Below are positions 1,120-16,204 of a stretch of 35,227 bases of DNA, in pieces (positions within the stretch are counted from its first letter, which is position 1; each line of letters starts with the position of its first letter). Made by a program: the position numbers and the translations under genes. The notes under the pieces were generated by a model. That model was given only the letters and a program-made list of their open reading frames with translations. It was not told where the DNA came from and ran no database searches. The stretch spans positions 1-35,227 of the forward strand of contig WLWV01000008.1 of the NCBI GenBank assembly GCA_012103395.1. Direction: 5' to 3'. Origin of the DNA: Gammaproteobacteria bacterium (GTDB lineage: Bacteria; Pseudomonadota; Gammaproteobacteria; Arenicellales; Poriferihabitantaceae).

Positions 1120-2313
1120 ATGACGGAACCCACTCGTCTCGATAACGCTCGGGTGTTGATCTATAGCCATGATACCTTTGGTTTAGGTCACCTGAGAAGG
1201 TGCCGAGCTATTGCTCACGAGCTTGTTGGACGATACAAGGGAATATCCGTCCTTATCCTTTCCGGATCTCCCGTAATTGGTAGTTTTGAATTCCGTGCTA
1301 GGGTGGATTTCGTTCGAATTCCAGGTGTGATTAAATTGAAGGATGGTCGATATACGTCTTTGGGGTTGCATATCAATCTAGATCAGACTATGGCCATACG
1401 AGAAGCAATCATTTTAAAAACAGCGGAAGTTTTTGACCCTGATCTTTTTATTGTGGATAAAGAACCTTTAGGTCTTGAGGGCGAGGTCCGTGAGACGTTA
1501 AAGATGCTGCAGACGAAAGGAGTTAAGACGGTACTGGGAGAACGGGATATCATTGATGAAAGTCGATCTCTACAAAGAGAATGGGGAATGAAGGCTGCTC
1601 TACCTGCTTTAAAAGATCTCTATGATGAAATATGGGTTTACGGTCTAAAATCATTCTACGAACCATTTCAAGGGCTTGGGCTTGAGTCCGATATCTATGA
1701 CAAGACTTTCTTTACTGGCTACCTTAAGAGATCTTCTATCGATGATTGTGTAAAACCAGATATCGAGGAACCCTATATCCTTGTCACCCCAGGCGGTGGT
1801 AAGGATGGAGAAGAAATGGTTGAGTTGGTATTTGAAGCCTATCAGAAGTCAAAAGAACTGAGTACCGCTGTAATTTTCATACTTGGGCCGTTTATGAGTG
1901 AAGATAAACGTGAGTATTTTAAGCTCTTGGCTGAGTCTATCGATTTGTTTACTGTGTTTGACTACCATAACCGAATGGAATCTCTCATTGAGAATGCTCA
2001 GGGGCTGGTAACGATGGGTGGTTATAATACTTTCTGTGAAATTTTGAGCTTTAATAAGCCGACTATTATTATTCCGCGTTTCGAACCACGTACTGAGCAG
2101 CTAATAAGGGCAAGAAGAGCTACCGAGCTTTCTCTCGTAACAATGTTAGAGCCTGAGAACTTTAATTCTGAGAGCCTGATTCCGCTGATTAAGGGCTTGT
2201 CGAGTCAGCCTAAGCCTCACGACAACCTTTTGCCGGGAATGTTGGATGGAATGGATCAGGTATGTGAACGGGTTGTGGCTCTCATGATATCCACTGTTCA
2301 GGACGCCTCCTGA
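1120..2313 (+). CDS. MurG-like glycosyltransferase family protein (COG4671 type), first of a tandem pair
   Basis: Predicted GT-B-fold glycosyltransferase of 397 residues. The N-terminal half opens with LIYSHDTFGLGHLRRC, the glycine-histidine motif after the first strand that this family shares with MurG-type enzymes. The C-terminal half has GPFMSEDKREYF and then MGGYNTFCEIL and IIIPRFEPRTEQLIRA, the nucleotide-sugar binding region. There is no signal peptide or membrane segment, so it is probably cytosolic or peripheral on the inner membrane. It starts 55 bases after bamC and is followed 42 bases later by a second member of the same family and then a polysaccharide deacetylase, suggesting one operon. 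Donor and acceptor sugars are unknown. No strong ribosome-binding site precedes the ATG. Confidence 0.75.
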   Translation: MTEPTRLDNARVLIYSHDTFGLGHLRRCRAIAHELVGRYKGISVLILSGSPVIGSFEFRARVDFVRIPGVIKLKDGRYTSLGLHINLDQTMAIREAIILKTAEVFDPDLFIVDKEPLGLEGEVRETLKMLQTKGVKTVLGERDIIDESRSLQREWGMKAALPALKDLYDEIWVYGLKSFYEPFQGLGLESDIYDKTFFTGYLKRSSIDDCVKPDIEEPYILVTPGGGKDGEEMVELVFEAYQKSKELSTAVIFILGPFMSEDKREYFKLLAESIDLFTVFDYHNRMESLIENAQGLVTMGGYNTFCEILSFNKPTIIIPRFEPRTEQLIRARRATELSLVTMLEPENFNSESLIPLIKGLSSQPKPHDNLLPGMLDGMDQVCERVVALMISTVQDAS

Positions 2314-2355
2314 ATATTCTGAATAACTTGGGTTAGAGACAGGAGTTTCCTTGCC

Positions 2356-3612
2356 GTGATGAAACCTGACGGCACACATAAGCCTCCACGGCAAGAATTG
2401 GACGGTGCTTGTACAACAGGCATCGACGCCCCAGACAACTCTGGTTCAGCTAACTCACTTAAGATTGCTATTTACGTTCAACATTTGCTTGGCACCGGCC
2501 ATCTAGTTCGAATGATGGCTCTGGCCGATGCTCTGTCCGAGCGAAATCACTCTGTTTTGCTAGTGTCAGGAGGAGAATTAAAACATAACCGAACTCGATC
2601 CTATGAGTTCGTTCAGCTACCAATCACAAAAACTGCGCCGGGAGATTTTAGACAGCTTCTGGATCAACAAGGACTACCGGTTGATGAGTTCTGGAAGCAG
2701 TCAAGGACAGAGCAGCTATTGGATGCTGTTCTCAGTTTTGAACCGCAAGTGTTGATTGTCGAGACATTTCCGTTTGGTCGTAGGCAAATGAGATTTGAAC
2801 TGATGCCCCTACTAAGCAGCATAGAAAAAATGTCACCGCTACCGCTAGTGGTTGCTTCTATTCGCGATATTCTCCAAAGTCGAGCGCCTAAGAGAAACCG
2901 GGAAACAGTGGAATTACTGCAATCAAGCTTTGATGCCGTTTTGGTTCACGGCGACCCGAGCCTCGCACCGCTGTCGGCATCGTTTCCTTTATCGCATCAA
3001 ATTGAGCCCTTGTTACATTACAGTGGGTATATTAATCAATCGCGTCGTGTATTCGGTAAACAAGGAGCGGTGGGTCTTGGAGGAGATGGTTTTAAAGAAG
3101 TCATTGTATCGGCTGGCGGTGGCGCTGTTGGGATGAACCTATTGTTGACTGCCATAAAAGCAAAACCGTTGTCGATACTAAAAGACGCCGTATGGCGTAT
3201 TATGATTGGCAAAAACTTAGAGGCTCAGGATGCCAACTTACTTCGGTCTATGGCGAATGATCAGATCTTAGTTGAAGAGAATAGGTCGGACTTTCCGTTG
3301 TTGCTGCATCGTTGTGAGCTATCGATTTCTCAATCGGGATACAATTCCTGTCTGGATATTATTCACGCCAAAGTTAGATCCGTGATGGTTCCTTTCTCTG
3401 CGGATGGAGAAACTGAGCAATACCAAAGAGCACAAATTCTAAGTGAAAAAGGTCTGGTGGTGTTGTTACCAGAATCTGCACTAACCCCACAGAATCTCGC
3501 TGCTGCGGTGAACAAGGCCATGAAGCAGTGGATATCGCAGGATTTAACAATAGAAACGAACGGGGCCGAAAAAAGTGCGATGATAATAGAGCGGCTTGCT
3601 CAGAGATGCTAA
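2356..3612 (+). CDS. MurG-like glycosyltransferase family protein (COG4671 type), second of a tandem pair
   Basis: A 418-residue GT-B-type protein, clearly related in layout to its upstream neighbour but strongly diverged. After about 30 variable residues, IAIYVQHLLGTGHLVRMMAL repeats the glycine-histidine motif. In the C-terminal domain, SAGGGAVG is followed by SISQSGYNSCLDII and VPFSADGETEQYQRA, equivalent to the donor-sugar region. The start is GTG at 2356 or ATG at 2359; the upstream GACAGGAG favours GTG by spacing. It is followed almost directly by the deacetylase gene. The pair probably adds two different sugars or forms a heteromer; this is inference. Confidence 0.72.
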   Translation: MMKPDGTHKPPRQELDGACTTGIDAPDNSGSANSLKIAIYVQHLLGTGHLVRMMALADALSERNHSVLLVSGGELKHNRTRSYEFVQLPITKTAPGDFRQLLDQQGLPVDEFWKQSRTEQLLDAVLSFEPQVLIVETFPFGRRQMRFELMPLLSSIEKMSPLPLVVASIRDILQSRAPKRNRETVELLQSSFDAVLVHGDPSLAPLSASFPLSHQIEPLLHYSGYINQSRRVFGKQGAVGLGGDGFKEVIVSAGGGAVGMNLLLTAIKAKPLSILKDAVWRIMIGKNLEAQDANLLRSMANDQILVEENRSDFPLLLHRCELSISQSGYNSCLDIIHAKVRSVMVPFSADGETEQYQRAQILSEKGLVVLLPESALTPQNLAAAVNKAMKQWISQDLTIETNGAEKSAMIIERLAQRC

Positions 3613-3616
3613 AAAA

Positions 3617-4393
3617 ATGAACGAAGAAAGCGTATCGTGCCTCTATGAGGAATTGGATGAATGGAACTTTATCGGAGAGGAAGCAACTTTTTGGTGGAGG
3701 GATGATGATGCTCAAGCTTCGACTCCTGAACTTGAAAAGCTATTAAATTTATCGAGTCGGTTTTCGGTTCCAATCTCTTTAGCGGTCATTCCCGATAATC
3801 TTGATTCGTCGTTAAAGGACTGTATTGACAAAAATTTTAATATCACGGTTCTGCAGCACGGCTTTTCTCATCGAAATCATGCCGAGGTTCATCAAAAAAA
3901 ACAGGAGCTAGGTAACCATCGCATGGCTAGCGAAATTTTCGATGAACTACGTAAGGGAATGTCGAAACTACAAAGTCATTTTGGTGACGCTTTCTGTCCT
4001 ATTCTAGTACCACCTTGGAATCGAATTGATTTCTCTTTGGTGAGCAGTTTACCCAAAAATGGGTACAAAGGTGTATCAACATTCAAGCCAAGAGCGTGCT
4101 TAGAACCCGAGCATGGCTTATGGGTGGTTAATACTCATGCTGACATTATGAGCTGGAAAAAAGGTAAAAGGTTCATAGGAGAAACGTCCGTTGTTGAGCA
4201 GTTGGTAACACATCTGAAGAGTAGGCGTGAGGGAGCTTGTGATTCTACAGAGCCGACTGGATTATTGACCCACCATCTCGTGCACGATGTGGCAGCATGG
4301 CAGTTCTTGAATGATCTTATTGCGCTAATGGATGAGCACCCTGCGGTAAAGTGGATGGACGCTAAATCGATATTTCAAACTCGCTGGCGCTAG
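3617..4393 (+). CDS. NodB-type polysaccharide deacetylase family protein
   Basis: Predicted carbohydrate esterase 4-like (NodB fold) protein of 258 residues, likely removing acetyl groups from an amino sugar in a glycan or glycan precursor. The metal-site motifs are WWRDDDA (about residues 26-32, with the Asp cluster), HGFSHRNH (about 81-88) and VPPWNR; THHLVHD near the C-terminus is the last motif. There is no signal peptide, so action in the cytoplasm or on a lipid-linked intermediate is likely. The ATG at 3617 lies just past the preceding stop; an in-frame TTG at 3596 would overlap that gene by 17 bases. It converges with the GT4 gene, overlapping it by four bases. It belongs to the tandem-glycosyltransferase operon. 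Confidence 0.78.
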   Translation: MNEESVSCLYEELDEWNFIGEEATFWWRDDDAQASTPELEKLLNLSSRFSVPISLAVIPDNLDSSLKDCIDKNFNITVLQHGFSHRNHAEVHQKKQELGNHRMASEIFDELRKGMSKLQSHFGDAFCPILVPPWNRIDFSLVSSLPKNGYKGVSTFKPRACLEPEHGLWVVNTHADIMSWKKGKRFIGETSVVEQLVTHLKSRREGACDSTEPTGLLTHHLVHDVAAWQFLNDLIALMDEHPAVKWMDAKSIFQTRWR

Positions 4394-5565
4394 TCCTTCG
4401 GATTATCAAATGGGGCCCTAGGTTGCAGATGCCTCATTATTTCTTTTCTCAGAGTCTCAGCACCGTTTTCAAGCAAATGCTCAGTTTGGTATTTTGTCAA
4501 AGAACAAGCGGACATCTCAGCGATTTTTGTCGGACAACTTAGAATATCATCAATTGCCTTTGCCATTTTTCCTGCATCAATATCATCGACTAAAATCCCC
4601 GTTTTTTCATGTTCAACAATTTGTGCGATCCCACCGGTTCGCCCAGCGATCACGGGCAGTCCTGAGGCGAGTGATTCAAGAACCGACATTCCAAAGGCTT
4701 CATTGATTGCCGGCCATAGAAAAATATCACTGCAATGAAGGCAGTCTTCTATGTATCCTTTTTCTTGAACACCAAGAAAATGGACGTTGTTTTTGTCACC
4801 AAATGCATTTTTGATTTCCTCTTGGGCAGGACCATCTCCGATGATTAACAATTGCCAGTCTTTTCGTTCAACCAAGCTCATGGCATCAGCTAGCATTAGA
4901 TAGGACAGGAGTTTGCTATCTCGGCGCATCATACCCACACAGCAAAGCCAATACTGGTTCTCACTAATATTTTTCTCTGTCGCGATACGTCGACGTAGTT
5001 CTGGTTTGCGGGATAGATGTGGAGAAGTTTTAAGGAAGGGTTTTAAAGCAACGAGGTGCGTTTTTGGGTCAGCTAGCTGAGTCAAACAATCTCGGTCATT
5101 GGGATTAAGGATGAAGACTGCCTGAGCTTGTTTTAATGCCTTCAACGAGCAATCGTAACCATGTTTCCACTTACCATTCCTTTGCTTAGGAGCCATGGAT
5201 GCTTCGGCGACAAAATAAGGTATCGAGAGTGCTTCAGATACCATTGGGCCAATCCAATCAGGTGCCTTATGATAAAGATGATAAGTGAACCACGCATCTG
5301 GTTTTTCTGAATCTGGTTGTCGAGAATAATATTCGATCAGTTCCGAACCCTGTTTAAGTCCGACGCCCTCAATCCGTTTTTGTTCGACAATATTTCCTTG
5401 GCCTTCCCAACTTCTGAGTTCACTTGCCAGTTCAACTTTAAATCTCGCATGCTGTAATGCCTCAATAAGCAATTGGGCAATATATCGATCACCTGATGGC
5501 ACTCCATGATTTGGGGATTTCATCGGTGCATAAAAGGCGATCTTCAGCGACGGAGGTAATGGCAT
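4390..5565 (-). CDS. Glycosyltransferase family 4 protein
   Basis: Retaining GT-B glycosyltransferase of about 391 residues. The N-terminus LKIAFYAPMKSPNHGVPSGD is the typical first strand and glycine loop. The C-terminal domain has WLCCVGMMRRDSK, IIGDGPAQEEI, then EAFGMSVLESLASGLPVI and TGGIAQIVEHEKTGILV, the EX7E donor-binding region. The ATG at 5565 places the first strand a few residues in; an in-frame TTG at 5634 would add 23 residues and leave only 27 bases to panB. The gene faces the deacetylase and is divergent from panB. Its place beside the COG4671-type pair suggests it works on the same glycan. Substrate unknown. Confidence 0.8.
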   Translation of the reverse strand: MPLPPSLKIAFYAPMKSPNHGVPSGDRYIAQLLIEALQHARFKVELASELRSWEGQGNIVEQKRIEGVGLKQGSELIEYYSRQPDSEKPDAWFTYHLYHKAPDWIGPMVSEALSIPYFVAEASMAPKQRNGKWKHGYDCSLKALKQAQAVFILNPNDRDCLTQLADPKTHLVALKPFLKTSPHLSRKPELRRRIATEKNISENQYWLCCVGMMRRDSKLLSYLMLADAMSLVERKDWQLLIIGDGPAQEEIKNAFGDKNNVHFLGVQEKGYIEDCLHCSDIFLWPAINEAFGMSVLESLASGLPVIAGRTGGIAQIVEHEKTGILVDDIDAGKMAKAIDDILSCPTKIAEMSACSLTKYQTEHLLENGAETLRKEIMRHLQPRAPFDNPKD

Positions 5566-5645
5566 GTGCACAGTATAATGTGTCTTTCTTCTCTGGCATG
5601 ATCGTTCGATGTCTTGGATAATATCATTATTCAATCACGGGAATT

Positions 5646-5653
5646 CCTTAAGG
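5646..5653. promoter_or_regulatory. Palindromic CCTTAAGG that can serve as Shine-Dalgarno on both strands
   Basis: CCTTAAGG reads the same on both strands. On the plus strand its AAGG is eight bases before the panB ATG at 5662, which supports that start. On the minus strand AAGGA lies about ten bases before the alternative TTG (5634) of the GT4 gene. The panB use is well supported by spacing; the second use is speculative. Confidence 0.45.
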
Positions 5654-5661
5654 TTATTTAT

Positions 5662-6480
5662 ATGTCAGTTCAGACCAAAAAAGAGAAACGTATTACCATT
5701 AATACGTTGAAAAAAATGAAACAGTCTGGTGAGAAATTTTCAGCATTAACTGCATATGACTATTGTGGAGCCTATGCGGCAAGTGATGCGGGTGTTGACG
5801 TATTGTTAGTAGGTGATTCGCTCGGCATGGTTATTCAGGGGCACGATAGCAGTCTACCCGTCACAATTGAAGACACTGCCTACCACGTCCGTTGTGTAAA
5901 ACGGGGTAATCTTGGTTCATTGCTGGTCGCAGATCTGCCTTTCATGAGTTACTACACAGAATCAAAAAGTTTAGAGAATGCCGCGATACTAATGCGGGAA
6001 GGAGCTCAGATGGTGAAGCTTGAGGGAGGGGCTTGGCTCGCCGAAACGACCCGCTTGTTGAGTGAAAGAGGGATTCCCGTTTGCGCTCACATGGGGTTAA
6101 CCCCTCAGTCAGTAAACCATCTGGGTGGATATCAGGTGCAGGGAAGAGACCCCGAGCAAGGGCAAACCATTCTCAAGGAAGCTAAAGTGTTGCAGGATGC
6201 CGGTGCCAGTGTGATCTTGATCGAATGTGTCCCTGCTCATTTGGGTGAATTATTGACACAAAGTCTCGAAGTGCCTGTGATTGGAATCGGGGCTGGAGCA
6301 GGCACTGATGGCCAAATATTGGTATGGCATGACCTTTTAGGTCTTTATCCGGGGAAGGCGGCAAAGTTCGTCAAAAACTTTCTTGCCGGTAGTGACGACG
6401 GGATTCAAGGTGCTTTGAGAGACTATGTGTCCGCTGTGAAAAACGGTACCTTCCCGGACTCAGAACACAGTTACTTGTAG
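5662..6480 (+). CDS. panB: 3-methyl-2-oxobutanoate hydroxymethyltransferase (ketopantoate hydroxymethyltransferase)
   Basis: PanB transfers a hydroxymethyl group from 5,10-methylene-THF to 2-oxoisovalerate, making ketopantoate, the first committed step of pantothenate and CoA synthesis in the cytosol. The 272-residue protein (E. coli 264) has the TIM-barrel hallmarks: SALTAYDYCGA, LLVGDSLGMVIQGHDSS (metal-binding Asp52), LVADLPFMSY, GAQMVKLEGG, CAHMGLTPQSVNHLGGY, ILIECVPAHL and GIGAGAGTDGQILV. The start at 5662 has an AAGG ribosome-binding site eight bases upstream; an in-frame start at 5614 is less likely. panC and panD, frequent neighbours, are not in the window. It is convergent with the DmdA/GcvT-like gene. 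Confidence 0.95.
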   Translation: MSVQTKKEKRITINTLKKMKQSGEKFSALTAYDYCGAYAASDAGVDVLLVGDSLGMVIQGHDSSLPVTIEDTAYHVRCVKRGNLGSLLVADLPFMSYYTESKSLENAAILMREGAQMVKLEGGAWLAETTRLLSERGIPVCAHMGLTPQSVNHLGGYQVQGRDPEQGQTILKEAKVLQDAGASVILIECVPAHLGELLTQSLEVPVIGIGAGAGTDGQILVWHDLLGLYPGKAAKFVKNFLAGSDDGIQGALRDYVSAVKNGTFPDSEHSYL

Positions 6481-6626
6481 ACCCACTACCCTTAGGTTTA
6501 GGTTATCCAGCCAAAGTGCCGGTTGTACCGCCCCTTTCCATGCTATTTTGAACGCAATCGTTAAGGAACAGGGGCTTTTAAAAAGTGAAAGGCGGGAAGT
6601 TGCTTAGTGCAGAGTAACAAGCAGAG

Positions 6627-7811
6627 TTAATCCCTGGTTGGTATCATCACTCGTTTCCCTCTTGGGATTTCCGCCTGTTTGTCATACAAAGGTAAGGAAG
6701 CAAGCTTTCCAGGATGCAGTGTACCGTCTGTGCATTCGATAGTGACTTCCAAGCCTTCGGGATTTCCACTTTTATGCATCAAGGCTATGCCGATACCCTG
6801 CTTCAGGTAAGGAGAATGCGCGCCGGCTGTAATGGCACCGATGGATTGATCCCCCGATTTTATTTCACCGCCAATGTGTGGTTCACCACCTAGGCAAGTT
6901 ACGCCAGTTAGACGTACTTTCCTAGGAGCTTTTTCCAAAGCAGCTTTGCCGATGAAGTTCGGTTTGTCCATGTCGACGAACTTCCCAAGGCCTACTTCAA
7001 ACGGGTTAGTGAAACGGTTGAAGTCAGAGCCAGCATTGAGGATCCCTGCTTCTATCCTTCGAATGTGCATGGAATCGAGTCCGAATAAACTAATACCAAA
7101 AGGGGCCCCTTTTTCGGTGAGGTGTTGCCAGAGCGCATTTACATTATGATGTTGCTCAGTGTAGAACTCCCAACCAAGTTCATTGGTGTATCCCGTTCGT
7201 GTAATGATGACTTCTTGGCCGCCGAACTTTACTTTAGCAATACCAAAATAGCCGAATGGTTCAGGCATCCCATCATCAGAGGCCGCCTCTAGAATCTGCA
7301 TTGCTGTGGGACCTTGTACTTGAGAAACATTAATTTGTGGATCGGAGATCTCGACATCCATACCGATGCTGTGAGCGCGCGCCCAGCCGTAAAAATCACC
7401 ATCTGCCTGGACGTGCCAAAAGCAATCCTGAGCGATTCTAAGAAATACACCATCTGTGATTAAACCGCCGTCTTCATAACAAGCGAGTCCATAGCCACAT
7501 CTACCTACTTTTGCTTTGGTAATATCTTTAGTGAACAGCTTATTCAACAATGCCTCGGCATCTGGGCCTTTAAACTGGAGGGGTAACTCGCCCGTGTGTA
7601 GGACAGCCGCTTTTTGTCTCAATAACCAATATCCCTCTTCGGTATCAATTTTATCGAAGCAACAGGCCATAAAGCGACGGTTATACACGGTGTAATGTGG
7701 GCCATATGGACGTTCAATTTCATGGTATCGATGTCGTGACATATTGAAATCCCAGCCGGAGCCTGGGATTGTGGATACGAGATCTCTAGTTTTTCCATCG
7801 CCCGATTGCAT
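6627..7811 (-). CDS. GcvT-family, DmdA-like tetrahydrofolate-dependent methyl/aminomethyltransferase
   Basis: A 394-residue member of the glycine-cleavage T-protein family, which moves a one-carbon unit from a substrate to tetrahydrofolate. Order: N-terminal leader to about 35, then YTVYNRRFM, the GcvT beta domain with LQFKGPDAEALLN, DGGLITDGVF and WHVQADGD, then SQVQGPTAM, TRTGYTNELGWEFY, RIEAGILNAGSDF, PFEVGLGKFVDMD and a C-terminal barrel with HSPYLKQGIGIALM. The YTVYN start, ADGD, EVGLGKF and HSP segments resemble DMSP demethylase (DmdA) more than true GcvT, as I recall those sequences. No gcvH or gcvP is near. AAAAGG lies about nine bases before the ATG. A LysR gene is divergent and may control it. 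Exact substrate (DMSP, a methylated amine, or other) is unresolved. Confidence 0.75.
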   Translation of the reverse strand: MQSGDGKTRDLVSTIPGSGWDFNMSRHRYHEIERPYGPHYTVYNRRFMACCFDKIDTEEGYWLLRQKAAVLHTGELPLQFKGPDAEALLNKLFTKDITKAKVGRCGYGLACYEDGGLITDGVFLRIAQDCFWHVQADGDFYGWARAHSIGMDVEISDPQINVSQVQGPTAMQILEAASDDGMPEPFGYFGIAKVKFGGQEVIITRTGYTNELGWEFYTEQHHNVNALWQHLTEKGAPFGISLFGLDSMHIRRIEAGILNAGSDFNRFTNPFEVGLGKFVDMDKPNFIGKAALEKAPRKVRLTGVTCLGGEPHIGGEIKSGDQSIGAITAGAHSPYLKQGIGIALMHKSGNPEGLEVTIECTDGTLHPGKLASLPLYDKQAEIPRGKRVMIPTRD

Positions 7812-7894
7812 GAAGTGGTACCTTTTCGTGAAAGTTAATAAAGCGGCTCAAACATACCAAATTGTAAATGCGGTTGGACAGCACCGAAAACCAT

Positions 7895-7985
7895 TGACAA
7901 GTCAGCATTCAAGAAGGAGGTTAACATTGAAATAGATATGACACTAATGACAAAATGGAGGGAATTTATAAAGTATATGTCATAT
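7895..7985. promoter_or_regulatory. Candidate LysR operator region with repeated TGACA motifs
   Basis: The intergenic space between the DmdA-like and LysR genes has TGAC-N2-GTCA (7895-7904), two ATGACA direct repeats (7938-7943 and 7947-7952) and a reverse TGTCAT (7978-7983). ATATGACA (7936-7943) and TGTCATAT (7978-7985) form a perfect 8-bp inverted repeat. LysR regulators often bind dyads in the shared promoter of a divergent target. The motifs are seen; binding is inference. Confidence 0.35.
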
Positions 7986-8000
7986 TGCCATGAGACTTGA
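7915..8000 (+). other. Strong Shine-Dalgarno with a tiny leader ORF overlapping the lysR start
   Basis: AGGAGG (7915-7920) sits six bases before TTG AAA TAG (7927-7935), a two-codon minigene. In another frame, a 24-codon reading frame open from ATT 7926 (first ATG at 7938) ends at TGA 7998-8000, overlapping the LysR ATG at 7990. The LysR gene itself has no good ribosome-binding site. A leader that couples translation to lysR is possible; coding is unproven. Confidence 0.25.
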
Positions 8001-8877
8001 TACTGAATCACTCCGAACACTAAAAGCCATTGTCGACTCTGGCAGCTTAACTTTGGTCTCCAGAATACTGTCCATCACACCATCGGCGGTTAGTTGGAAG
8101 TTAAAGCGTTTAGAGCAGAGTGTTGGTAGGAAACTGATTCATCGGGATGGTCACACTATTGAGCCAACTGCGGATGGCAAACAGCTCCTTAGCTATGCTG
8201 AAATCATTCTTAGCACTCATGACGAAGCCGTACAGCAATTCTGTTTATCTGATCTCCAAGGGAGAATCAGAATAGGGATAACAGATGACATTGTCGTAAA
8301 ACAGCTGCCCAAGTTCATTGAAGGGTTTCAACGTCGTCATCCAAAGGTGAGATTGGAACTGAAAGTTGAACAGCAACTTACATTACTGAATTGGTTTGAT
8401 CAGCGCCAGATCGATGTGGCAGTGTTGCCTCTTGAGCCTCATAGGATCAGAGAGGAAGATACTCATTTGTGGGATGATGAGCTGATCTGGATCAAAAACA
8501 AAAATGTTGAATACTCGTTGGATGGCCCCGTTCCGCTGGTCACCTTTTCACCAAATTGTACTTATCGAAACGCCGCTATTGAGATGTTGAACGAAAATGG
8601 GGTTGACTACTATATCTGTATGGAGTGTCCAAGTCTCCAAGGAATCCGTACTATTATCTCATCAGGAATGGGGGTGACGTTGATTAATCGAGGGCTGATG
8701 GACCAAAGCCACTCTGAGTGGCCTCAGGGGGAAGTTTTTGCGATGGAGAGAAAAGTAACGTTCATTGCTCGTGCCACACCGCTGCTACCTCAACGCTTCA
8801 GAGAAATTATCGTTAATGAGTTGAAATCAGCATTAGTTGAAAATCCCAAGTCCAGTCGAAAATCACAGCTTCTCTAG
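7990..8877 (+). CDS. LysR-family transcriptional regulator
   Basis: A 295-residue LysR-type regulator. Residues about 1-60 form the winged helix-turn-helix: LDTESLRTLKAIVDSGSL, then ITPSAVSWKLKRLEQSVG and LIHRDGHTIEPTADG. Residues from about 88 (GRIRIGITDDIV) form the periplasmic-binding-like effector domain, with VDVAVLPLE-type strands in between. It is divergent from the DmdA-like gene across 178 bases, the classic arrangement for a regulator and its target. An in-frame stop just upstream (7969) fixes ATG 7990 as the only normal start, although it lacks a close Shine-Dalgarno. Its 3' end overlaps the convergent GT4 gene by 15 bases. The effector is unknown. Confidence 0.9.
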   Translation: MRLDTESLRTLKAIVDSGSLTLVSRILSITPSAVSWKLKRLEQSVGRKLIHRDGHTIEPTADGKQLLSYAEIILSTHDEAVQQFCLSDLQGRIRIGITDDIVVKQLPKFIEGFQRRHPKVRLELKVEQQLTLLNWFDQRQIDVAVLPLEPHRIREEDTHLWDDELIWIKNKNVEYSLDGPVPLVTFSPNCTYRNAAIEMLNENGVDYYICMECPSLQGIRTIISSGMGVTLINRGLMDQSHSEWPQGEVFAMERKVTFIARATPLLPQRFREIIVNELKSALVENPKSSRKSQLL

Positions 8878-10107
8878 CAGCTGATACAGGTCTTGGTGAT
8901 TACTGTTCATATCGAATGCCGATTGCACGATTTTGCTTCCGGCAAGCCCCTGTTTCTTTCGAAGAGAAGGGTTCTGAATGAGTTGAATAATTGCGTTGCT
9001 TAATGCTGTGTTGTCCCTCGATTTTACCAACAATCCGTTAGTCGAATGTTGAATGAGCTCGGGAACACCGGAAATGTCGGTTGAAATTACAGGTAGCCCC
9101 TGACTTTGAGCTTCAACCAATACATTGGGCAATCCATCTCGATCACCGTGTTCATCGATTTGACAGTTAAGTACGAAGAGGTCCGAAGACTGGTAGTGCT
9201 GCAACACGGTTTGTTGTGATTGCGGTCCGAGCCATTGTATTTTTCGCTCGATTTGTCGTTCCGTAGCTTGTCTTTTGAGCTCTTTCAACAAGGGTCCTCC
9301 ACCGATGTGAACGAATGTCCAATGTATGTCTAGGGGTAAACCTGCGAGCGCGCACAGCAAATCGGCATAACCTTTTTTGGCAACTGCTCTGCCAACACTT
9401 AATAAGATGACGGGTTGGTCGGGGTTGTCACCAATGCGTTCACTAAAGCTTGGTTGCGAGAGCGAAAAACGGCTGAGATCTAGACCGTGGTAGTTAAGCT
9501 TTATCTTCGCTGGCGTTTTGCTAATACTTCTTAAGTACTTCGTATTGGCTAATGTGCAAGTGGTAAGCCACTTGCACATATCAATTTTCTCCACTAGTTC
9601 CCACTCAGGGCTGGTCCAAATGTCTTTTGCATGAGCTGAACAGGCCCAGGGGAGCTGTCTAATTTCGCAGGCATATCGTGCCACGGAGGCAGGAGTGTGC
9701 AAAAAATGAACATAGACTCGTGGTATGTGCTGTGGAAGCTCTGCTGCCAGTACCGTCGCTTGCCCTAAACGCCGGACACGACTAGCTGTTCGGTCTCTTT
9801 TAAAATCTAACCACCAATTACCCAATACTCCAGACTTGGCAATTTGCTTACGCTTTTTCCAGATTGACCTAAAGAGCCTAAGTGGCTGTTGGTAGAGATA
9901 CTCAGGCAAGTACACCACGTTTGCATCGATTTCGTCGTGAATAGGGTGTGTCTTACTATCGGTAGGGCGCCTTAGTGAGTAGAGCGTAATGTCAAAACCG
10001 TGTTTTTCCAGTGAACGAATTTCCTGAGCAATAAACGTTTCGGACAATCTGGGGTAGCCTTTGAGCACAATGGCTAGTGGTGTACGCATAGGGGTCTGAA
10101 AATCCAA
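8863..10107 (-). CDS. Glycosyltransferase family 4 protein (WcaL-like)
   Basis: A 414-residue GT-B glycosyltransferase. The start LAIVLKGYPRLSETFIAQEI is the pattern of exopolysaccharide enzymes such as WcaL, followed by VHFLHTPASVARYA and ACSAHAKDIW. The C-terminal domain has ILLSVGRAVAKKGYADLL, FVHIGGGPLLKEL, DGLPNVLVEAQSQGLPVIST and ISGVPELI, the donor-sugar site. No membrane segment is evident, so it would act at the cytosolic face. It lies 99 bases downstream of the importer operon on the same strand, and its 3' end overlaps lysR by 15 bases. A second ATG six residues in is an alternative start. It contains a perfect 12-bp hairpin. It may share a pathway with the other glycan genes at 1120-5565. 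Confidence 0.82.
   Translation of the reverse strand: MDFQTPMRTPLAIVLKGYPRLSETFIAQEIRSLEKHGFDITLYSLRRPTDSKTHPIHDEIDANVVYLPEYLYQQPLRLFRSIWKKRKQIAKSGVLGNWWLDFKRDRTASRVRRLGQATVLAAELPQHIPRVYVHFLHTPASVARYACEIRQLPWACSAHAKDIWTSPEWELVEKIDMCKWLTTCTLANTKYLRSISKTPAKIKLNYHGLDLSRFSLSQPSFSERIGDNPDQPVILLSVGRAVAKKGYADLLCALAGLPLDIHWTFVHIGGGPLLKELKRQATERQIERKIQWLGPQSQQTVLQHYQSSDLFVLNCQIDEHGDRDGLPNVLVEAQSQGLPVISTDISGVPELIQHSTNGLLVKSRDNTALSNAIIQLIQNPSLRKKQGLAGSKIVQSAFDMNSNHQDLYQLLEKL
9552..9579. repeat. Perfect 12-bp hairpin inside the GT4 gene
   Basis: ATGTGCAAGTGG (9552-9563), loop TAAG (9564-9567), then CCACTTGCACAT (9568-9579): a 28-base perfect stem-loop fully inside coding sequence. In the gene's frame it encodes Met-Cys-Lys-Trp-Leu-Thr-Thr-Cys-Thr-Leu. 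Such a long exact arm is unlikely to be needed for coding. It could arise from template-switch correction during replication or act on the mRNA. Confidence 0.85.
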
Positions 10108-10206: not shown

Positions 10207-11379
10207 CTATTTGTAGGGGTCTGCAGCGTCCCGTAGCCCATCTCCAAAGAAGTTAAAAGCCAAAATAATCACAACTACGGGTAAAACAGGCAAGATAAGC
10301 CATGGATAAAGTGCGATTACATTAATATTTTGAGCCTCATTAAGTAGCACGCCCCAACTCGTAATCGGCGGTCTCAATCCCAACCCCAGAAAGGATAATG
10401 CGGTTTCTCCCAGAATCATGCCGGGTATTGAAAGCGTGGCGGAGGCGATAATGTGACTGGAAAACCCGGGCAAGAGATGTTTGGAGATAATCCTACTTGG
10501 TTTTGCTCCCATTAGCTTTGCCGCCGTGCAGTAATCTTCTTCCCTTAAGGCGAGTAGTTTGGAGCGCACGGCGCGAGCTAGTCCAGTCCAGTCCAATAAG
10601 GCGAGGATGATGGTAATGCCGAAAAATACCAGAATGGGGCTCCATGTTACCGGTAGGATAGCGGACAGGGCCATCCACAAAGGCAACTCTGGAAATGATC
10701 GAATAATCTCAATGGTTCGCTGAACCACTGAGTCGACCCACCCACCATAGTATCCCGCCAAACCACCAAGCAGCAGTCCGAGAAACAAACTGACAATTAT
10801 GCCGCCTAAACCAATCAAGAGCGAAATTCTAGCGCCATAGACAATTCGGGAGAAAACATCTCGGCCTAATCGGTCTGTTCCGAAAACAAAGAACGTGGCA
10901 TCTTCAGCAGGACAAACAAAATGAAAATTGGCATCAAAGATCCCCCAAAACTGGTATTCATCACCTTGACATAAAAAACGAAGTGGATGTACTTTTTCAA
11001 GGTTAGGCGTGTACTCCCTTTTCAGGTTCTCCATGTCTAGGTAATAGTCATAGCCGTATACGAACGGCCCAATAAACGCGCCTTCGTGGAAAAGATGGAC
11101 TCTTTGTGGTGGTGCGTAAATGTACTCAGTATTGCGAGTGTGTAGATTATAGGGAGAGACTAATTCGGAAACGAGTGTCGATGCGTACATGATCAGCAGT
11201 ATCAAACCAGAGAAAACCGCTAATTTATGCCTCTTTAGCTTCCACCACATGAGCTGATGGCGAGATGCAAAGAAATACTTTTCCTGTTCGGCGCTGAGTT
11301 TTTCGACGGAAAGAGGGTCGAACTTCGCCGTTGAGGTATAGTGCTTTGTATTCGCTTCACTGTTTCGCTGAGAGTTCAT
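10207..11379 (-). CDS. Peptide-type ABC transporter permease (OppC/YejE-like)
   Basis: Inner-membrane permease of 390 residues, second of the two channel subunits of an oligopeptide-family importer. A cytoplasmic N-terminus of about 50 residues leads to the first membrane helix (KLAVFSGLILLIMYASTLV). A long periplasmic segment of roughly 95 residues follows, ending in FVFGTDRLGRDVFSRI, then five more helices. The EAA loop that contacts the ATPase is GLARAVRSKLLALREEDYC with AAKLMGAKPSRII. The long first loop is a YejE-like trait. GGAGGAGA lies just before the ATG, and ATGA overlaps the upstream permease stop (11376-11379), indicating translational coupling. Substrate unknown. Confidence 0.88.
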   Translation of the reverse strand: MNSQRNSEANTKHYTSTAKFDPLSVEKLSAEQEKYFFASRHQLMWWKLKRHKLAVFSGLILLIMYASTLVSELVSPYNLHTRNTEYIYAPPQRVHLFHEGAFIGPFVYGYDYYLDMENLKREYTPNLEKVHPLRFLCQGDEYQFWGIFDANFHFVCPAEDATFFVFGTDRLGRDVFSRIVYGARISLLIGLGGIIVSLFLGLLLGGLAGYYGGWVDSVVQRTIEIIRSFPELPLWMALSAILPVTWSPILVFFGITIILALLDWTGLARAVRSKLLALREEDYCTAAKLMGAKPSRIISKHLLPGFSSHIIASATLSIPGMILGETALSFLGLGLRPPITSWGVLLNEAQNINVIALYPWLILPVLPVVVIILAFNFFGDGLRDAADPYK

Positions 11380-12374
11380 TGTATCTCCTCCCCATAGAGT
11401 CTGATTCTAGGGTCAAGCCAAGCGAGCAACAGATCTGAAATCAACATTCCGACCACTGTCAGTATTGCCAGAAATAGTAAGAAAGTGCCCGCTAGATACA
11501 TATCTTGACTCTGCAATGCATTCAGAAGCATTGGTCCAGTGGTTGGTAAAGAAAGCACAATAGCTGTTATTTCAGCTCCAGAGATAACACTAGGCAGTAG
11601 ACTGCCTATGTCAGCGATAAAGAAGTTCAAAGCCATGCGCAAGGGATATTTCATCAACAATTTTGAAGGTGCTAACCCCTTGGCTTTGCCGGTGAGTACA
11701 TATTGTTTTTCCAATTCATCAAGTAGATTGGCTCTAAGTCTTCTAATCATCCCCGCTGTGCCTGAAGTACCAATAACGATGACGGGTATCCACAAATGCT
11801 CTAAGACAGACTTGAACTTGTTCCAACTCCAGGGTTGATCCATGTACTGCGGATCCATGAGGCCGCCTATGGAGGTGCCAAACCAAACATTCGCGAAATA
11901 CAACATCACCAATGCCAGTAGAAAATTTGGGATAGCTAGCCCCAAAAATCCTAGGAGAGTTAGCCCATAATCTCCCCAACTGTATTGATGAGTGGCGGAA
12001 TAGATGCCAATAGGGAATGCGATGGCCCAGGTGAAGATGATCGTGATAATAGAAACGATGATGGTCAACCAGATGCGGTCGCCCATCACTTCTCTTACAG
12101 GTAGGTCGTATTCAAACGAGTAACCATAATCTCCGACAAAAAAACCAGTTACCCAGTCATAATATTGCAGAAGAAAGGGTTGATCCAATCCATATTGTTG
12201 TCTCAGGAATTTGATCTTATCCGGGTCAACGGATTCTCCCTGGCTTTCAAGCTCGGCGATATGCGTTTCAAGATAGTCTCCCGGGGGGAGTTGAATGATG
12301 ACAAAGATGATGAAGCTGATTGCCAACAAAGTTGGGATCATCGTTAATAGGCGTCTTAGAACGTAATAAAACAT
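11376..12374 (-). CDS. Peptide-type ABC transporter permease (OppB/DppB-like)
   Basis: Inner-membrane permease of 332 residues. It begins YYVLRRLLTMIPTLLAISFI, the conserved first helix of DppB/OppB proteins. The periplasmic part contains LRQQYGLDQPFLLQYYDWV and GDYGYSFEYDLPV; the EAA loop is ANLLDELEKQYVLTGKAKGL with PSKLLMKYPLR; the C-terminus LLLAWLDPRIRLYGEE is typical of the family. Six membrane helices are expected. It starts nine bases after the binding-protein stop and overlaps the next permease by four bases, so it is the third gene of the importer operon. Confidence 0.9.
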   Translation of the reverse strand: MFYYVLRRLLTMIPTLLAISFIIFVIIQLPPGDYLETHIAELESQGESVDPDKIKFLRQQYGLDQPFLLQYYDWVTGFFVGDYGYSFEYDLPVREVMGDRIWLTIIVSIITIIFTWAIAFPIGIYSATHQYSWGDYGLTLLGFLGLAIPNFLLALVMLYFANVWFGTSIGGLMDPQYMDQPWSWNKFKSVLEHLWIPVIVIGTSGTAGMIRRLRANLLDELEKQYVLTGKAKGLAPSKLLMKYPLRMALNFFIADIGSLLPSVISGAEITAIVLSLPTTGPMLLNALQSQDMYLAGTFLLFLAILTVVGMLISDLLLAWLDPRIRLYGEEIQ

Positions 12375-12383
12375 AGACTTAAT

Positions 12384-14345
12384 TTATTCCTGGTTTTCGA
12401 ACCAAAATGTGTCTGGTTTATATACGCCGAAATACGCCGTGGGCTCCCAGCCGAAGCTGGCTGTTTCCGGCACATTCTTCAGCTTATTATTGACCACTAT
12501 GGGTTGCGGGACGCCACAAATGAGCCCAATACTGAAAACTTGTTGGGCGTTAATATCAAGAATCTCATGCCAAATTTCAGTTCTCTCATCGAGACGACTT
12601 GATTCACTCCATTGGTGATAAAGTTCCATCAATCGCTGACCTTCGGGTATATCTGGAGCTTCTCCTACACCACCGTTACTTTCAGCATATTGCCCCCACT
12701 TAGGCCATTGAAGTTGATTTTGGTGGGTAGGGGCGAAAGATTCCGGGCTCATGTTCGCTGTCGGAGTTCCGTTGTCGATGCCGTTGAACATTGCCATCAT
12801 GGCCTCGCCCGAAAAAACTCTCTCCCGAAACACCTCGCGTTGAGAGGGCTTTGTGTGTAATTTAATTCCCACTTTTTTCCAACTTTCCCCCACCAACTCA
12901 AGAATGTCGGTTTCCTCTGTGCTTTCTCCTGCGGTTTGTAGGATTATCTCTACAGGTTCACCATTTTCCATCAATCGTATACCGCGGTCATCTCGATCAG
13001 TTAGCCCGAGTGCATCCAGCATTTTATTTGCTTGGTCGATATCATAATGAGCCCAAGCAGTCTGATACTCAGGCTTAAACAGTGAACATTGTGGAAGTAC
13101 AGTATTATTGGATTCAAGCGCTAAGCCGAAATAGATCACCTGATTGATTTCCCGTCGATTAATGCTAATGGATAGCGCACGGCGAAAATTAGTGTTACGA
13201 ACCAGTTTTCGCCAAATCGGATTGTTGCTATTCAAATTAGGATATATTGCAAGCTGTGCACCAGTCCCGTTACTCCACAATCGCACAGAAAAATCGTTGC
13301 GTTGTTCGCCGCCCTTAAGAAAAGTGTAATTATCCAAACGAATGTACCGCCCTTGCAGATCAGATTCTCCAGCCCCGGTTTTAGCGGCAACAAGGCTTTT
13401 ACTGGTAATCTGGATGATGACTTCATCAATATATGGTAGCTGGTGGCCTGCTTCATCGACTCGGTAATAATAAGGATTGCGAGTAAAAACAAACCGTTCT
13501 GATGGTGGGCGAGTGGTATTCACCCAAGGTTGCAGCATCGGTAATTTGGGGTTGTCGTTTTTATACGGGTGATTATGTCGATGATGCAGTCCAGCCCAGT
13601 TTCTCACGCCAGTCTCCTCAACGAGCGCTGCTAGCTTTTCTTCGTTAGCATAGCTGATATGGAATTGTTTAGAATAGTGTTTTGGGGCGTAAAGAAATAG
13701 TGGCCTTGGGCCCGCAATAGCAGGCAGGAAAAATGGATTTGGTTTTTGCCAGCTATATCGTACCGTTGTGTCATCTGGAAATTCGACTATAGGCGGCTCG
13801 TCATTAACCAGTAATGCTTTGGGAACGCCAAAAGGATATAGCTCATCGTTGTTTAGTACGTCTTCCCAAAAGTATTTAAAATCTTCACTGGTAAAGGGTG
13901 CACCGTCTGACCATTTATGGCCTTTACGTAAGTGAAAAGTAAATATTCGGCCTTCTTGAACGTCAAAACTTTTCAAAATATCTGCTTTAAATGCAAGGGT
14001 TTCATCATATCCCACTAGTCGGGAATATCCATAAACCATCATCATTCGAATATCTTTGGTACGACCCATTAACATCCTTAATTGGCCGCCATGTTTACCG
14101 CTTGTCTTACCTGTTTCTACCAGATTGACAACTTGAGGTTCCAAAGGCAATCTGTTGGAAATAGGGGGTGGAGTAGGTTTTTTAAGTCGCTGAAAATTCT
14201 CACTATTGAAGTAGTCAGTATCAATATAGGTTTGGCTGTTCGCCCATGAACATGAAACAAATGCAAGCGTGCTCACAATGAAAAAGAGCGTGGAAATCGG
14301 TTTCACTAGGAAGTCGGTGAGCGAGAGTAATGCCTGCTTAGTCAA
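12384..14345 (-). CDS. ABC transporter substrate-binding protein, family 5 (peptide-type)
   Basis: Periplasmic solute-binding protein of 653 residues, larger than DppA/OppA (about 535-545). A signal sequence with a hydrophobic core around residues 15-32 (ISTLFFIVSTLAFVS) is followed by SWANS; cleavage after Ala is likely, though Cys32 makes a lipoprotein reading possible. Family 5 features are FTFHLRKGHKWSDGAPFTSE, PYYYRVDEAGHQLPYIDEV and NTNFRRALSISINRREI. The start is TTG overlapping the ATPase stop (TTGA, 14342-14345), with GAGGG well placed upstream. It should define the importer's ligand, probably a peptide or peptide-like compound; YejA-like systems import longer peptides. Confidence 0.88.
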   Translation of the reverse strand: MTKQALLSLTDFLVKPISTLFFIVSTLAFVSCSWANSQTYIDTDYFNSENFQRLKKPTPPPISNRLPLEPQVVNLVETGKTSGKHGGQLRMLMGRTKDIRMMMVYGYSRLVGYDETLAFKADILKSFDVQEGRIFTFHLRKGHKWSDGAPFTSEDFKYFWEDVLNNDELYPFGVPKALLVNDEPPIVEFPDDTTVRYSWQKPNPFFLPAIAGPRPLFLYAPKHYSKQFHISYANEEKLAALVEETGVRNWAGLHHRHNHPYKNDNPKLPMLQPWVNTTRPPSERFVFTRNPYYYRVDEAGHQLPYIDEVIIQITSKSLVAAKTGAGESDLQGRYIRLDNYTFLKGGEQRNDFSVRLWSNGTGAQLAIYPNLNSNNPIWRKLVRNTNFRRALSISINRREINQVIYFGLALESNNTVLPQCSLFKPEYQTAWAHYDIDQANKMLDALGLTDRDDRGIRLMENGEPVEIILQTAGESTEETDILELVGESWKKVGIKLHTKPSQREVFRERVFSGEAMMAMFNGIDNGTPTANMSPESFAPTHQNQLQWPKWGQYAESNGGVGEAPDIPEGQRLMELYHQWSESSRLDERTEIWHEILDINAQQVFSIGLICGVPQPIVVNNKLKNVPETASFGWEPTAYFGVYKPDTFWFENQE

Positions 14346-16204
14346 TGTGGGTCCCTCGATCTGACGAAATGATTGGGTTCAACTTCAATGAGAGAATATC
14401 GTCCATCGGATTTTTCCTGGTATTCATCAGGCCACAATAAATCGGCTCCGGGTTCACTAATAAGGTCGAAGTTAAGCGGGGTGTTGAGATCGGGAACGGG
14501 GATCGAGGACAATAATGACTTTGTATAGGGGTGAATTGGGTTCTCGAATAATGCTTTCCTATCTGCCACCTCAACGAATTTGCCTTTATACATTACCGCA
14601 ATTCGATCAGAGATATAGTCCACTACGGCGAGATTATGGGTGACAAATAGGTAGCTCAAACCTAATTCAGTTTGCAGGTCTTTCATCAGGTTTAGAACCT
14701 GAGCCTGAATTGAGACATCAAGAGCGGAAACCGGCTCATCACAAATGAGAAGTTCCGGCTGTAATGCCAATGCACGAGCAATACCGATACGTTGTCTTTG
14801 CCCACCTGAAAAGCTATGTGGGTACCTCCTGAGGTATCTTGAATCAAGGCCCACGAGTCGCATTAATTCACTGGCCGCTTCGATTTGGTAATCCATATTG
14901 CCAAGATTATGAATTACCATCGGTTCACGAATGATGTCAAATACGGTCATGCTGGGGTTTAAAGACCCAACGGGATCCTGGAAAATATATTGCACCTTAC
15001 ATCGATATTCGAATAGGGCCTCGTTATCAAGTTGTTCCACGTTCATTGGCGAGCCGGAGTCGTCGAAGATAATATTGCCACTGTCGGGTACCAGTGCGCG
15101 AACAAGCATCTTACTAAGTGTTGACTTCCCGCTACCACTTTCTCCCACCAATCCAAGCGATTCTCCTCGATAGAGGTCAAAGTTAACATCGTCCACGGCG
15201 ATGACTCTGGGCGCATTGGTTTGGAATGACCAGGCATGACTTCTGGCACCGAAACTCTTATTTAGGTTACGGACACTTAAGATAATCTTGGACTGGTTCA
15301 CTTGATTGAGGTTGTTTCTACTTTTCAGAAACTCGCCCACCTCAGCCTTAATTTCTCTAAGGGGAGTCAGTCGCTCACCAGGCTTTAAGTTGAATCTTGG
15401 TACGGCATGCAGTAATGCCTCAGTATACCTATGCTGAGGATCGTTGAAGATATGTTCCACAGTGCCTGATTCCATCACTTCTCCATGGTAGATAACCACG
15501 ACTTCATCCGCCACGTTCGCCACGACTCCAAGATCATGAGTGATCATCAATACCGCCATATTCAGCTCGGTTTGGAAGGATCGAATCAGTTTTAAAATTT
15601 GTGCCTGAATAGTGACATCCAGAGCGGTCGTCGGCTCGTCGGCGATAAGCAATGAAGGGTGACAGATCAATGCCATAGCAATCATCGCACGTTGCCTCAT
15701 TCCCCCAGATAACTCAAAGGGATAAAGATTCACTGCCATTTCGGCGTTTGAAAAGCCCACAAGCCCCAGCATTTCAACGGTGAGGTTCAATCCTTCTTTT
15801 TTGCCAATCTCCTGGTGCAGAAACAGCGCTTCACTGATTTGGTCACCAATGGTATGCAAAGGCGAAAGTGAGACCATCGGCTCCTGAAAAATCAACGAAA
15901 TACTACCCCCACGCAAATCTCGCATGGCCTCGCTATCAGGATGAAGGTTGGTAACATCAACATCGACTAATTGTTTTTCCTCATCGTTGAGGATAATACT
16001 TCCCGCGGTAATCTCACCATTCGCTGGTAACAGATTCATGATTGCCTTAGAAATGACAGACTTACCAGAACCTGATTCACCAACTAATGCAACCGTTTTC
16101 CCCCGATAAAGATCGAATGACACACCCTTAACCGCATCCACATTGGTGCCGTGGACGTGAAATTTAACAGAAAGGTCTTGAATTGAGAGTAGAGGCTTTA
16201 GCAT
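14342..16204 (-). CDS. Peptide-type ABC transporter ATP-binding protein with two fused ATPase domains (YejF-like)
   Basis: A 620-residue protein joining two ABC ATPase domains that are separate genes (DppD and DppF types) in many operons. Domain 1: Walker A GESGSGKS at 42-49, signature ELSGGMRQR near 164-172, Walker B LLIADEP near 185-191. Domain 2: Walker A GESGSGKS at 354-361, signature SFSGGQRQR, Walker B LLICDEPVSALD. Each is followed by the oligopeptide-family C-terminal extension (DPQHRYTEALL; NPIHPYTKSLL). It energises import through the two permeases below. It is first in the four-gene importer and lies 67 bases after the oxygenase gene on the same strand. No clear ribosome-binding site precedes ATG 16204. 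Confidence 0.93.
   Translation of the reverse strand: MLKPLLSIQDLSVKFHVHGTNVDAVKGVSFDLYRGKTVALVGESGSGKSVISKAIMNLLPANGEITAGSIILNDEEKQLVDVDVTNLHPDSEAMRDLRGGSISLIFQEPMVSLSPLHTIGDQISEALFLHQEIGKKEGLNLTVEMLGLVGFSNAEMAVNLYPFELSGGMRQRAMIAMALICHPSLLIADEPTTALDVTIQAQILKLIRSFQTELNMAVLMITHDLGVVANVADEVVVIYHGEVMESGTVEHIFNDPQHRYTEALLHAVPRFNLKPGERLTPLREIKAEVGEFLKSRNNLNQVNQSKIILSVRNLNKSFGARSHAWSFQTNAPRVIAVDDVNFDLYRGESLGLVGESGSGKSTLSKMLVRALVPDSGNIIFDDSGSPMNVEQLDNEALFEYRCKVQYIFQDPVGSLNPSMTVFDIIREPMVIHNLGNMDYQIEAASELMRLVGLDSRYLRRYPHSFSGGQRQRIGIARALALQPELLICDEPVSALDVSIQAQVLNLMKDLQTELGLSYLFVTHNLAVVDYISDRIAVMYKGKFVEVADRKALFENPIHPYTKSLLSSIPVPDLNTPLNFDLISEPGADLLWPDEYQEKSDGRYSLIEVEPNHFVRSRDPH

Follow-up and report, generated by a model that had tools for sequence, protein, structure and literature searches.

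What does a bacterium assemble with two diverged glycosyltransferases encoded side by side, a deacetylase encoded immediately behind them and a further glycosyltransferase gene that converges on the set? The question is raised by a stretch of 35,227 nucleotides from a gammaproteobacterium of the order Arenicellales (contig WLWV01000008.1, assembly GCA_012103395.1), called the window in the following, in which these four genes (GTa, GTb, DAC and GT4x, Table 1) occupy positions 1120 to 5565. The original prediction, made from the sequence alone, had taken them for a candidate undescribed pathway of three or four genes that may modify a lipid, a small glycoside or a protein and has no assigned product. 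Our analysis led to a different answer: the window carries a rearranged gammaproteobacterial member of an envelope-glycan locus of the type represented in Sinorhizobium meliloti by the genes for the 'phazolicin-protecting polysaccharide' (PPP), and the four genes are a fragment of this larger locus.

The S. meliloti copy is located on pSymB, near 837 kb in strain 1021. Identities to its orthologues amount to 51% over 402 amino acids for a second GT4 glycosyltransferase, GT4y, 48% for a solute-binding protein (SBP), 46% for GTa, 38% each for GTb and GT4x, and 37% for DAC; the match of GT4y is the PPP-cluster GT4 that lies between the two GT28-type genes. In an annotated S. meliloti strain, GT4x is followed by genes for the deacetylase, an MBL-fold protein, a DUF3095 protein, a UDP-sugar dehydrogenase, a cyclase and a polysaccharide lyase, and then by those for an importer, GTa, GT4y, GTb, a methyltransferase, an ABCB-type protein and a cyclic nucleotide (cNMP)-binding protein. 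The genes beside GT4x (MscS, GT4, sulfotransferase, aminotransferase, PIG-L deacetylase and, farther away, another sulfotransferase) agree with smb21242–smb21249 and smb21248/smb21250 as described (PMC5498481; PMC12542648), which places S. meliloti GT4x, by gene order, as the probable smb21252. The annotation of smb21257 as a truncated adenylate cyclase (PMC12542648) likewise matches the content of the cluster. Transposon insertions in nine genes in the range smb21252–smb21271 strongly lower fitness in the presence of phazolicin, as found by transposon sequencing (Travin et al. 2023, PMC10128002), and mutation of smb21252 or smb21265 reduces the minimum inhibitory concentration of phazolicin from 1.47 to 0.18 µg/ml, i.e., renders the cells about eightfold more sensitive (PMC10128002). 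This phenotype is known from S. meliloti only. Seven of the nine genes are up-regulated under attack by Myxococcus (PMC10315480). The presumed product was given the name PPP and termed as yet uncharacterised (PMC10128002). The system is therefore not undescribed, its S. meliloti counterpart having been published as the PPP locus (PMC10128002). The statement that no product has been assigned holds in the sense that PPP is named and its structure is not established; close homologues have thus been assigned to a glycan, but not to one of established structure.

How far does the locus extend in the window? GT4y and a four-gene importer of the Opp type (10207–16204), located 3.3–10.6 kb beyond the 4.4 kb initially considered, are part of the same system as the four genes, and the boundary drawn in the original prediction was therefore too narrow. 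When plasmid records were searched with GTb, 260 records were retrieved, mostly from Rhizobium and Sinorhizobium, in which the four importer genes (for a fused ATPase, two permeases and a binding protein some 635 residues long), GTa, a GT4 gene and GTb directly adjoin each other in this order. These loci usually continue with a gene for an ABC protein roughly 900 residues long, after which comes one for a cNMP-binding protein. The assertion that no flippase or other transport part is present is correct for the 4.4 kb inspected but does not hold beyond them, as the importer and the second GT4 follow in the window and the ABCB-type protein is encoded elsewhere in the genome. GT4x and GT4y are separated in the window by panB, a stand-alone GcvT-like gene and a gene for a LysR regulator (5614–8877); several relatives likewise have panB at this position, and in most others GT4x and GT4y are adjacent. 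Promoter-like sites were no more frequent than in shuffled sequences, and terminator-like sites were only slightly more frequent.

That these genes belong together is borne out by their inheritance. In a panel of 398 genomes of Pseudomonadota (thresholds: E ≤ 1e-60 for GTa, E ≤ 1e-100 for SBP and E ≤ 1e-80 for the ABCB-type protein), SBP and the ABCB-type protein occur in an identical set of 27 genomes, which span eleven families, and GTa is present in the same 27 and in two more that contain a homologue with 32–35% identity alone. The deacetylase profile was found in 26 of the 27, in both genomes with the weak GTa homologue and in six others. For GTa and SBP, the hypergeometric probability of such co-occurrence is about 1e-38 when relatedness of the genomes is ignored. 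Among 59 near relatives, GTa is present in 39, 37 of which also encode SBP and 36 the ABCB-type protein, and neither of the latter two was encountered in a genome lacking GTa. The three genes often reside on separate contigs in these relatives, and yet they co-occur. The proposed co-occurrence of transferases and deacetylase thus lies far above chance.

We then asked which genes recur around GTa. Within 10 kb of GTa in 80 loci from titled genomes, many of them cut by contig ends, we counted GTb in 64 loci, GT4y in 62, GT4x in 52, the deacetylase in 49, a histidine phosphatase in 42, the ABCB-type protein in 38, and the binding protein and the cNMP-binding protein in 36 each. The transferases and the deacetylase do recur together, but the recurrent set is larger and includes the importer, the GT4 enzymes and the ABCB-type protein. 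In the order to which the window organism belongs, the families that recur comprise all four transferases, the four importer proteins and the deacetylase, and further the ABCB-type protein (family c8), the cNMP-binding protein (c9), a cyclase of class III (c11) and the histidine phosphatase (c16); a few less common families also recur near the locus. In the commonest alphaproteobacterial layout, one strand carries the genes for the methyltransferase, the cNMP-binding protein and the ABCB-type protein, and the opposite one those for GTa, GT4y, GT4x, the histidine phosphatase, GTb, the deacetylase, the ATPase, the binding protein and a permease. Since the GT4 genes lie between GTa and GTb in this layout, as they do in most alphaproteobacterial loci, the tandem pair of GTa and GTb is a lineage-specific, largely gammaproteobacterial arrangement, and all four transferases belong together.

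Several other genes accompany the locus. A conserved protein of about 213 residues (L047:7205–7846 and relatives, family c12), whose gene adjoins that for the cNMP-binding protein, has no Pfam match; its HD-rich motifs, YHDLNH and WFHDVIY, resemble those of HD-type phosphohydrolases. Another conserved protein, of about 172 residues and with N-terminal hydrophobic segments (L187:15938–16456 and 15 other loci), is present in many alphaproteobacterial loci and has no significant Pfam match. MscS-type mechanosensitive channels recur beside the loci in several lineages including S. meliloti (e.g., L046:3060–5621, L188:1423–3771, L097:9175–11529 and L207:2243–4363).

Table 1. Genes of the PPP-type locus in the window (positions refer to the window)
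Gene	Product	Position	Strand	Basis
GTa	GT28-type (GT-B) glycosyltransferase	1120..2313	+	PF04101, GT-B fold, rhizobial/Ruegeria orthologues
GTb	Second, diverged GT28-type glycosyltransferase	2356..3612	+	PF04101, S. meliloti PPP-cluster orthologue
DAC	Predicted cytoplasmic CE4/NodB-fold deacetylase	3617..4393	+	Predicted fold, invariant motifs; reading frame open from TTG 3596
GT4x	GT4 glycosyltransferase	4390..5565	-	PF00534, E 1.6e-28; reading frame open from 5634
GT4y	Second GT4 glycosyltransferase	8863..10107	-	PF00534, E 2.1e-34
permC	Opp/Dpp-type ABC importer permease	10207..11379	-	PF00528, OppC_N; adjoins GT genes in relatives
permB	Opp/Dpp-type ABC importer permease	11376..12374	-	PF00528, BPD_transp_1_N
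SBP	Family-5 (cluster C) solute-binding protein, N-terminal hydrophobic segment	12384..14345	-	PF00496, E 4.6e-58
ATPase	Fused OppD-OppF-type importer ATPase	14342..16204	-	Two ABC_tran domains

Which enzymes are encoded? The adjacent reading frames of GTa and GTb both match Glyco_tran_28_C (PF04101) with scores of 41.7 and 43.1 bits, respectively, against a curated cut-off of 22 (Pfam), and share only 22% identity, so that the description as two diverged transferases is accurate. Membership in the MurG family was rejected: GTb reaches 29.7 bits against the equivalog cut-off of 250 for MurG (TIGR01133), and this model is not listed among the matches of GTa. Assignment of GTa to the MJ1255/VC2487 family TIGR00661 was also rejected (45.2 bits, subfamily cut-off 195.9), and a literature search for COG4671 combined with 'glycosyltransferase' gave no result. 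Rhizobial and Ruegeria orthologues are 45–46% identical to GTa, which is predicted to adopt a GT-B fold (predicted local distance difference test score, pLDDT, 84.8); CalG1 and similar GT-B transferases are the closest solved structures to the model (Foldseek E 2.4e-13 to CalG1).

The deacetylase evades detection by sequence profiles. No significant match was found for DAC in Pfam, including PF01522, where only a weak hit to DUF2334 appeared (E = 0.0056), nor in a sequence search of the PDB, and for its S. meliloti orthologue the PF01522 score of 17.7 stays below the cut-off of 23.1. The AlphaFold model of DAC is a CE4/NodB barrel (pLDDT 92.5) that superimposes on CE4 deacetylase structures with Z scores of 15–19 (for VIA up to 19.4 over 222 residues with a root mean square deviation of 2.8). 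Residues D36/D37/D38, H88, H92, R143 and H226/H227 are invariant across 13–16 relatives, and the resulting DD, HxxxH, R and HH motifs occupy the positions expected for metal binding and catalysis. The model and these residues agree with the predicted assignment of a NodB-fold deacetylase with intact metal motifs. Its gene does adjoin the transferase genes without a gap, the first ATG lying 4 nucleotides past the GTb stop codon, and the two genes overlap by 4 nucleotides in many relatives. GT4x indeed converges on the set and meets the end of DAC, the two reading frames overlapping by 4 nucleotides; the probable start of GT4x coincides with the end of the originally predicted set. An N-terminal hydrophobic segment is absent from GTa, GTb, DAC and GT4x alike, in line with the predicted absence of signal peptides, and all four proteins would therefore work in the cytoplasm.

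In the importer ATPase, both nucleotide-binding domains are intact, with canonical Walker A, signature and Walker B motifs. The NCBIfam equivalog cut-offs for oligopeptide transport by Opp were not reached (permB 239.9 of 450, permC 268.6 of 350, SBP 81.9 of 650), whereas the Pfam superfamily matches are clear despite these scores. The nearest solved structures to SBP are 5ipw (E 1.2e-78) and SPH1118 of Sphingomonas sp. A1 (7VER, E 2.6e-65), which is likewise a large cluster-C binding protein of an importer annotated as Opp. SPH1118 was also formerly annotated as a peptide binder and binds pectin oligosaccharides (PMC9314435). The analogy to SPH1118 would suggest that the importer is specific for uronates, but this was not supported, as Arg57, Arg438 and Arg496, which bind acidic sugars in SPH1118, are not kept in the aligned sequence of the window SBP; a three-residue shift of the alignment might nevertheless bring Arg57 opposite Arg100 of the window SBP, which is invariant. 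In S. meliloti, genes for a UDP-sugar dehydrogenase, a cyclase and a PF14099 polysaccharide lyase are located directly before the importer (L103:3538–7649). The dehydrogenase and the lyase hint at a uronate-containing polymer, and the proximity of the lyase to the importer fits recycling.

The strictly co-inherited ABCB-type protein (about 880–916 amino acids) is ABCB/MsbA-like and exporter-like. In an alignment of 38 copies (including L046:15614–18262 (+) and L096:16532–19282 (+)), the Walker A residues GK[S/T] are kept in only two, most others carrying D or E after GK or GR; the signature reads S-x-x-Q-R-Q-K instead of SGGQ, and the aspartate of Walker B is mostly replaced by N or S. An inserted segment of about 280 residues contains a repeat of a short helical-subdomain motif like V-x-[ED]-N-[LI]-L-F-G. 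As the nucleotide-binding domain is degenerate in nearly all copies, ATP hydrolysis by this protein appears doubtful.

Taken together, we consider it likely that the locus serves cytoplasmic assembly of a glycan, its transfer to the envelope, where it acts as a surface barrier, and return of material by the importer. Judging from folds and motifs, GTa, GTb, GT4x and GT4y would assemble the glycan at the cytoplasmic face, and the CE4-type deacetylase would strip acetyl groups from an N-acetylated sugar in it. Gene content suggests that the glycan would reach the envelope with the help of the ABCB/MsbA-like protein encoded elsewhere, and the phenotype of the S. meliloti mutants suggests that it would serve there as a barrier. 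The Opp-like importer would most likely return fragments or precursors of the glycan to the cell, for recycling or length control. Gene content, orthology, co-inheritance and the predicted deacetylase and GT-B folds are the observed part of this scheme; the sugar composition, the order of steps, and the substrate and direction of both transporters are what we infer. It is favored by alphaproteobacterial clusters in which the genes for all four transferases and DAC lie together with those for the importer, the ABCB-type protein and the cNMP-binding protein. Several points weigh against it. PPP was inferred from genes and a phenotype, the polymer itself never having been isolated, and the smb locus tags were assigned via gene order, not from the annotated record of strain 1021. 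The deacetylase is present in only 21 of 60 genomes of the order. Few of the sugar-binding positions of SPH1118 that were compared are retained in the importer (only Arg466, and Trp594 as Trp or Phe in the SBP family). Finally, the ABCB-type gene appears interrupted in both genomes of the genus: in the genome of the window, only residues 3–310 were found (L104, G000:C291, 8219–9261), the reading frame ending at a stop codon 119 nucleotides before the contig end, and in a sister genome (L105, G001:C42, 4166–6706) it contains two in-frame stops near codon 190; therefore, the window organism may not export the product in this way. The interruption could stem from faulty assembly, from an inserted element or from loss of the gene in this genus. 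The sequence in which the reading frame ends in the genome of the window may be a mobile element.

Other explanations have to be weighed against a PPP-type envelope glycan. A short oligosaccharide might be built on a membrane lipid and flipped by the MsbA-like protein without formation of a polymer. Such modification of a glycolipid or lipid anchor would agree with the ABCB/MsbA-like nature of the export-type partner, with transferases devoid of signal peptides, and with the finding that no polymerase, Wzx/Wzy, ABC-2 permease (KpsMT, Wzm-Wzt) or processive GT2 synthase is among the recurrent neighbor families, the rest of the genome not having been searched; we regard it as distinctly unlikely, as the UDP-sugar dehydrogenase and polysaccharide lyase beside the S. 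meliloti importer suit a uronate polymer better. It appears slightly less probable still that the importer takes up an external small molecule or peptide, which is decorated by the transferases and the deacetylase and secreted by the ABCB-type protein as a glycoside, be it a natural product or a detoxified compound. The importer is co-inherited as strictly as the transferases and the nearest folds to GTa include the antibiotic glycosyltransferases CalG1 and OleD, but such matches are general to GT-B enzymes, with UDP-GlcNAc 2-epimerases about equally near, neither a biosynthetic core nor an acyl- or peptide-modifying enzyme is a recurrent part of the loci, and the S. meliloti data indicate an envelope barrier.

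Could importer and transferases be independent and merely share genomes with large metabolic repertoires? The panB, GcvT-like and LysR genes between the two groups in the window would be in line with this, but the identical sets of 27 genomes in eleven families, the union of the genes in one operon-like cluster in rhizobia as well as other Alphaproteobacteria, and the co-occurrence even of unlinked genes render it extremely improbable, and we disfavor it already. There is, by comparison, some room for a distinct envelope-glycan route, unlikely as it may be, in which the Opp-like importer is an obligate part, for return of glycan or supply of a periplasmic precursor, and the ABCB-type protein, devoid of a normal ATPase site, is driven or gated otherwise, possibly via its cyclic-nucleotide-binding partner.

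The locus is not undescribed but it is poorly understood, and its architecture appears to be unlike that of classic capsule routes. It occurs across Alpha-, Beta- and Gammaproteobacteria, including rhizobia, roseobacters and sponge-associated lineages, and protects S. meliloti from a peptide antibiotic. What makes it interesting is not an undescribed three-gene pathway but the importer to which it is strictly coupled and the unusual ABCB-type partner: tied to a co-inherited importer and a protein with a degenerate ATPase, anonymous glycosyltransferases become a defined and testable system, for which a parts list for PPP is now provided.

Some other loci bear comparison. On an Escherichia plasmid (KS-P079, NZ_AP025755), genes resembling GTa, GT4y and GT4x lie in a row together with an ABC transporter (L101:8010–17152), possibly forming a polysaccharide export locus. 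Identities are only 32–35%, the stretch seen has no Opp-like importer, and it contains two phosphotransferase-like genes besides those for a nucleotide-sugar dehydrogenase and an AlgE-type outer-membrane exporter. The msbA2 operon of S. meliloti (SMb21188–SMb21191), proposed to make an unknown polysaccharide (PMC3687685), also combines glycosyltransferases and an ABC exporter; it differs by an acyltransferase and the absence of an importer, and the operon, with SMb21188 at 938 kb of pSymB and thus about 100 kb from the present cluster, is not the orthologue. Identity of the rhizobial homologues with this operon was ruled out by genes and position. The closest relationship is that to the S. meliloti PPP locus. 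The window genes differ from it in falling into two groups with panB, the GcvT-like gene and LysR between them, in that no gene for a cNMP-binding protein, a cyclase, a UDP-sugar dehydrogenase or a polysaccharide lyase lies in their vicinity, and in that the ABCB-type gene of the organism resides, apparently interrupted, on another contig; what both have in common are orthologues of GTa, GT4y, GTb, GT4x, the deacetylase, all four importer genes and, in the window organism apparently only in part, the ABCB-type protein.

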